From Heliopora coerulea (taxonomy: Eukaryota; Cnidaria; Anthozoa; Scleralcyonacea; Helioporidae), in assembly GCA_030142905.1 (NCBI GenBank), contig JASJOG010000590.1, positions 1 to 64,000 on the forward strand: a stretch of 64,000 bases of DNA, read 5' to 3'. Position 1 is the first letter of the stretch. Each line of letters starts with the position of its first letter. The notes below the pieces were generated by a model. It was not told where the DNA came from. It was given only the letters and a program-made list of their open reading frames with translations, and did no database searches. Positions 3,511-27,634 of this stretch are shown piece by piece. The translations under genes and the position numbers were made by a program.

Positions 3511-4199
3511 CACCTGCAATGCCAAAGAAGACGCCTGTACATCCAGTACCATCCCTCCAGCGCCAAAAGTTGACGTTTTGGAATTAAAAGATATAAAAGC
3601 AACTCGTGTTGATTGGCCTGATTTTAATAGGCGGAAGACTGATGTCCTTTTACTGACAGTAAACGATATTGAATTTTGTGCTACGCTTAAGATTCTACCT
3701 GACCCAAAAATTACAGATAGCCAACAAAGTCTTGGCCGTGTTTACTTTGACGAGATTAATCATAACAGAGTTGCTGTTTTAAAATCAGACATGGGTTCGA
3801 CGGGCCCTGCCGGGATACAAGCCACGCTTTTAGATGCAATTGAACTGTTGAAGCCTGGGGTAATTGTGTGTCTTGGAGTGGCTTTTGGAATGAACCAAGA
3901 CAAGGTCCAGCTAGGCGACGTGTTGGTGGCGACCAAGATGGCTCTATATGGCAAACAAAAAGTGGACACCGAAGGCGAGATCTTACGACGAGGATCAGAA
4001 TTTGATTGTAACGCAAGACTTTTCCGTTTGTTCGATCTTGGCAAATATGGTTGGAAAGGTCCGAACAATGATGACAATGTACCAAAAGTTCATCTCGGCC
4101 TTGTTCTTAGTGGTCCAGTGCTTATTAATAACAAAGATTATAAAGAGAAGCTTCGACGTTTGTATCCAGAGGCTTTGGGAGGAGAGATGGAAGGAGAAG
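3511..4199 (+). CDS. PNP-Death gene, exon with most of the PNP/MTAN domain
   Basis: After about 35 linker residues the exon reads a classic nucleoside phosphorylase fold: LLLTVNDIEF (first strand, E77 in the 445-residue model), then GRVYF, a SDMGSTGPAG turn (substrate loop of the family), IELLKPGVIVCLGVAFG (nucleoside-binding strand with the family's 'G.a.G' turn), QLGDVLVATKMA, a GLVLSGPVLI strand, and GGEMEGEG. E77 and E250 (in EMEG) occupy the places of E12 and E174 of E. coli MTAN. The exon ends at 4199 with donor GTATGC in phase 1. Reading through gives only a short non-homologous tail and a stop, so splicing here is well supported. Confidence 0.85.

Positions 4200-27634: not shown

Follow-up and report, generated by a model that had tools for sequence, protein, structure and literature searches.

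Structure of the PNP and Death exons

The window, by which we mean the whole 64,000-nucleotide stretch of Heliopora coerulea DNA that was analysed, corresponds to the opening 64 kb of contig C546. It carries two exons of a PNP-type nucleosidase and, downstream, a Death-domain exon (Table 1). Exons A and B form one open PNP domain, and Pfam matched PNP_UDP_1 in the spliced model with E = 1.3e-14 (54.6 bits against a cut-off of 25.1). The first-pass annotation had described an intact PNP fold over two exons, and this description was borne out. Exon A ends at 4199, where a GT follows in phase 1. Its likely acceptor is at 3503/3504, so that position 3511, given earlier as the start, falls within exon A and is not the start of the gene. 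A further first exon upstream of exon A is likely; none was found in the window. The donor of exon B ranks in the top 0.21% among the 3809 GTs of the window, as scored with a donor matrix. If exon B is left unspliced, the frame runs on to TGA at 5541-5543, about 15 bases beyond the donor.

The Death exon begins after the AG at 27359, in a phase matching that of exon B (phase 1), and stops at 27634. In the spliced model the Death domain is barely above the Pfam cut-off (E = 3.9e-5, 24.1 bits against 22.6). As had been claimed, this exon is on the PNP strand, is matched in phase, is terminated by a stop codon and has AATAAA beyond it. Taken separately, the PNP exons and the Death exon each exceed chance. 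No other recognised domain exon was found downstream of exon B. The annotation went further and joined PNP and Death into one protein. Both domains, the phases and the splice sites agree with that claim; the single transcript was not confirmed, given the 21.8-kb gap, the retroelement ORFs within it and a protein database search that returned no spliced protein from the window locus. We infer a transcript shared by exon B and the Death exon.

Table 1. Features of the candidate PNP-Death gene in the window (C134 carries a near-identical copy)
Feature	Position	Strand	Basis or remarks
PNP exon A	3504..4199	+	N-terminal part of the nucleosidase domain; holds E56 and E229 of the model
PNP exon B	5341..5526	+	VCKGVSDWADG with D252, then C-terminal helix; donor GTGAGT, phase 1
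Putative intron, 21.8 kb	5527..27359	+	Many retroelement-like ORFs; mostly collinear with C134 except for insertions
Stretch of about 870 bp (intron end and Death exon)	26776..27650	+	89-93% identical to ANK-ROC-COR-Death 3' ends on C568, C749 and C222
Death-domain exon with stop codon	27360..27634	+	Pfam, phase, sequence match
AATAAA, candidate poly(A) signal	27779..27784	+	Read from sequence

Active site and phylogeny of the nucleosidase domain

The alignment showed that all three catalytic acids are present in the window PNP. They are numbered E56, E229 and D252 from the acceptor at 3504, and are the E77, E250 and D273 of the first-pass annotation. E229 and D252 line up with the EME and SD motifs of E. 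coli MTAN (MTA/SAH nucleosidase), and the E-to-D spacing is 23, as described earlier. An AlphaFold comparison with MTAN, which had been proposed, supported the MTAN fold for the relative P0007, whose PNP part has pLDDT of about 88-98 in nearly all blocks and whose Death part is poorly modelled, although P0007 has Q at the E229 position. The window PNP resembles MTAN in fold (that of P0007) and in acids but differs from it in sequence: it shares 28.8% identity with the E. coli fragment across 198 columns and scores below the cut-offs of the MTAN equivalog models (73.1 against 169 for NF004079 and 53.3 against 73.8 for TIGR01704).

Scores of the window PNP with 22 non-cnidarian PNP proteins were 114-170 bits, compared to 63 bits with the E. 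coli MTAN fragment (190 residues only); these 22 proteins are close by choice because they were picked from matches to the window or to P0007. Another precomputed domain is carried by 7 of the 22, and PF20690 (bDLD3), PF13676, PF00931, PF00400 and PF13289 are among these domains. We take the last four to be TIR, NB-ARC, WD40 and SIR2-like, respectively. The PADLOC PN-superfamily model matched the window stretch with 63.3 bits. This match was dropped as proof of an immune role because the same model matched the E. coli MTAN fragment (54.6 bits).

A tree of 62 sequences was built with FastTree from a single alignment; the values are local supports and the MTAN branch is long. L012 and L015 were left out, as exon B was not found in their stretches. 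The window sequence falls with L019, P0007, L013, L009-L011 and the L014 group (local support 0.991). The coral proteins named by NCBI, together with L018, L020 and L038 of the H. coerulea genome, form a clade apart from that of the window. Changed acids occur in 3 of the 19 own-genome rows: V replaces E229 in L019, N replaces D252 in L013, which also has an insertion at E229, and H replaces D252 in L038. They occur as well in 9 of the 19 cnidarian rows (P0007, P0093, P0128, P0129, P0142, P0151, P0165, P0168 and P0188). L009-L011 have glutamate at E229, and all 22 of the other (non-cnidarian) rows keep E229 and D252.

PNP-Death genes in the H. coerulea genome

We searched the 429.8-Mb assembly (769 contigs) for further copies. 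The second PNP exon gave 152 matches; the 150 listed occupy 149 places spread over 78 contigs. Two Death queries each yielded a list of 150 matches, out of 231 and 466 first-look candidates. Within 3 kb of a PNP exon B, listed Death matches on the same strand were downstream in 12 and upstream in 1 of 150 cases (one-sided binomial p 0.0017); the counts were 19 vs. 3 within 10 kb (p 0.0004) and 31 vs. 10 within 30 kb (p 0.0007), all p values being optimistic because the copies are related. The PNP-Death arrangement in this genome exceeds chance. For the window-type Death alone, listed downstream and upstream counts were 0 vs. 0 (3 kb), 2 vs. 1 (10 kb) and 12 vs. 5 (30 kb, p = 0.07) of 150. Opposite-strand counts were set aside as a control, since 84 of the 94 contigs with at least two listed matches carry every match on a single strand, which may come from tandem arrays or from the search itself. 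Among the matches listed, C174, C77 and C754 hold 15, 9 and 9 exon-B places, respectively, apparently in tandem arrays.

Nine listed PNP-Death pairs are separated by 593-604 bp. Their Death matches are all of the L024 type, other than that of the window, and three of them (two on C66 and one on C256) contain stops. The paralogue on C398 (L038) is compact, with PNP-A, PNP-B and Death in frame within 2.9 kb, phase 1 at every junction and a last intron of about 500 bp. L019 of the same genome has the order of P0007, Death, then PNP, then a stop; tblastn found no N-terminal Death like that of P0007 or L019 in the window. On C578 (57000-71900, L024 and L029; frame at 7915-11004), an open frame of about 1030 codons lies after the PNP gene and before a Death exon, with LRR, Roc and COR-A above cut-off and COR-B below. 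From its sequence a PNP-LRR-ROCO-Death gene is possible at this place. We did not accept the three parts as one gene; exon B there reads into TAG.

PNP-Death proteins in other cnidarians

Named animal relatives of the window PNP family were found in Acropora, Montipora, Stylophora, Oculina, Orbicella, Porites and Paramuricea. Two of them from Montipora capricornis (P0091 and P0125) are called "death domain-containing ATP nucleosidase-like" by NCBI, and P0091 has no Death match in Pfam despite this name. P0098, P0165 and P0114 have PNP followed by Death, on contigs of 1782, 1745 and 1779 bp, respectively, and the 1397-bp contig of P0007 encodes the reverse order, an N-terminal Death ahead of PNP. 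The presence of PNP and Death within one cnidarian protein was borne out by Pfam, with both domains in P0098 and P0114, and by the C398 frame. In the AlphaFold model of P0098 a loose linker connects the PNP domain to a bundle of six helices, with pLDDT mostly above 90 in both folded parts. PNP-Death is a real and recurrent animal architecture. OTU (P0099 and P0129) and HEPN (P0161) are other partner domains of cnidarian PNP relatives.

The window gene would resemble the coral family in having PNP followed by a C-terminal Death, as in P0125 and the unnamed P0098 and P0114, and all three of these proteins keep the three acids as the window does. It differs in the separate clade of its PNP and in its ROCO-type Death exon. 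The protein kind of the window gene is already known and named in corals. Eukaryotic immune ATP nucleosidases were reportedly the subject of a 2023 Cell paper. The first-pass annotation knew of no detailed description of such a protein; its claim of novelty is unsupported because of this paper and of the NCBI names. A literature search of titles and opening abstract text found no paper on PNP-Death proteins.

Origin of the Death exon and alternative readings of the locus

Our preferred reading is that the window holds a PNP nucleosidase with an intact active site, likely spliced to the Death exon and making an immune nucleosidase of the ATP type; we put its chances at about even. Its main competitor, which we consider quite possible though short of even, concerns the source of the Death exon. 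Ankyrin-ROC-COR-Death (DAPK1/ROCO-like) genes are present in the same genome (L034, L035 and L036 on C568, C749 and C222), and their 3' exon (in L034 and L036) shares 84-87% identity with the Death exon of the window. Its likeness to coral PNP-Death proteins is remote, with 26% over 58 residues to P0114, and four of the six tested had no match under E = 1. The Death exon could be a leftover 3' exon of a ROCO gene whose other exons are gone, in which case PNP would end in exon B or join an unrecognised exon. The 89-93% identity of about 870 bp around the Death exon to ROCO 3' ends argues for this, as do the surroundings of the 10 best PNP-B matches: among the matches listed, a Death exon lies in the 30 kb downstream of 2 of them and is absent there for the other 8. 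Scant purifying constraint on the Death exon between the window and C134 points the same way. By NG86, dN was 0.062 and dS 0.034 for this pair, in a short exon with few changes. dN/dS was 0.69, 1.00 and 2.22 for the window and 0.53, 0.66 and 1.50 for C134, each against the ROCO-linked exons, and 0.34-0.45 among the ROCO-linked exons themselves. By these values, constraint may have been lost. However, the ankyrin and ROC-COR frames of L034-L036 have no match in the window or in the C134 stretch, a difference from the ROCO genes themselves. The donor at the end of exon B is strong, and the Death frame and splice acceptor are intact in both the window and C134 copies. The same order is also repeated by a diverged paralogue on C45, where PNP-B is followed 8.7 kb on by a Death exon 70% identical to that of the window, and ROC-COR frames were unmatched in the PNP-Death part read there (excluding 545901-547100). 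Of the 20 Death matches of at least 70% identity, a PNP-B is listed in the 30 kb upstream of just three (C546, C134 and C45), which counts against the preferred reading.

The C134 copy has the same exon order with 14.9 kb between PNP-B and Death, and it could be allelic to the window. Exons A and B of the two copies differ at 1 base of the 876 compared. The part at 2800-5500 has 0-2 differences per 250 bases; at 6000-11400 the figure is mostly 7-14 (range 4-17), and at 20250-24000 it is 10-24. A PNP segment nearly free of differences, in copies that are several per cent apart elsewhere, suggests recent conversion or sharing between the window and C134. These differences, an intron rich in transposons and a Death exon under little constraint would also suit a duplicate that is decaying or has undergone conversion, or an allelic copy, that makes no working protein. 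We consider this unlikely, as the window has three open exons, intact splice signals and its full set of three acids. Less likely still is an ordinary purine or MTA/SAH salvage nucleosidase for which the Death domain only provides a place in the cell. In its favour, each of the 33 matched PDB sequences belongs to an MTAN, adenosylhomocysteine or aminodeoxyfutalosine nucleosidase, and the 50 top fold matches of P0007 are enzymes of this kind too. Against salvage, the MTAN equivalog models stayed below cut-off and the closest bacterial relatives include several multidomain PNPs. Nor would a salvage enzyme be expected to have about 150 matching places within a single genome, or catalytic residues that changed repeatedly.

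Proposed mechanism and relation to bacterial immune nucleosidases

According to our preferred reading of an active nucleosidase joined to a Death domain, PNP exons A and B would be spliced over the transposon-rich 21.8-kb intron to the Death exon. Death-Death contacts would cluster the enzyme or draw it to an upstream adaptor. Once the Death domain was recruited to an infection signal, the enzyme would cleave ATP or a similar purine nucleotide. By analogy with relatives, the reaction would be N-glycosidic cleavage of ATP or dATP to adenine and ribose triphosphate, and the loss of nucleotide would starve the pathogen or kill the infected cell. Cleavage of ATP/dATP upon Death-domain clustering is the most likely mechanism on this analogy, beside which parts of PMC10197012 and PMC12409349 may be consulted.

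The window gene differs from bacterial immune effectors in being an animal gene, with introns and a Death exon; it is like them in its GEMEG and KxxxDWADG-like motifs and in the domain fusions of its relatives. Bacterial immune PNP/ATP nucleosidase effectors (CBASS, Detocs and NLR-like) were reportedly described by Rousset et al. in 2023. Detocs and PNP effectors are among the matters treated in PMC11249213. Bacterial PNPases fused to bDLD3 death-like or TRADD-N domains appear in part of an eLife article of 2021 (PMC8195603). These unite PNP with a death-like domain in one protein, as the window gene would, and P0011, with PF20690 (bDLD3) and PNP, matches the window at 32% over 86%. They differ in that their Death-like domains belong to other families, whereas the window Death is closest to ROCO genes of its own genome.

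If the window gene works as read, it would represent a second, separate clade of animal immune-type nucleosidases beside the named coral family, and would offer a directly testable case in which an energy-depletion effector of the bacterial style is coupled to Death-domain signalling in an animal. It is of interest for its copy number, its separate clade, the loss of acids in some copies and its ROCO-type Death exon. An arms race is suggested by the many matching places in one genome together with the copies that lost acids, and these make it possible to compare active, dead and shuffled members. We tentatively propose a broader view, which is possible but doubtful. The roughly 150 matching places may be a shuffling arsenal of genes for nucleotide-cleaving immune proteins, in which the PNP module has repeatedly been re-fitted with interchangeable phase-1 adaptor exons (N-terminal Death, C-terminal IRAK-like Death, ROCO-type Death, perhaps a whole LRR-ROC-COR receptor). 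Some of them would have lost catalysis and become decoys or regulators. The window gene would be a late acquisition, in which an active PNP took its Death exon from a DAPK1-like ROCO gene.

Mobile elements in the window

By eye, many ORFs at 10437-20297 and 34059-35765 resemble Penelope-type retroelements, with reverse transcriptase and GIY-YIG-like ends. Several copies are present on both strands, most of them within the putative intron. At 16540-18115, near-identical ORFs of 271 residues lie on opposite strands, head to head around 17300-17355, and to judge from their sequences this pair is an inverted duplication of a retroelement piece. ORFs at 45158-47354 resemble by eye a BED-finger transposase of the hAT type.
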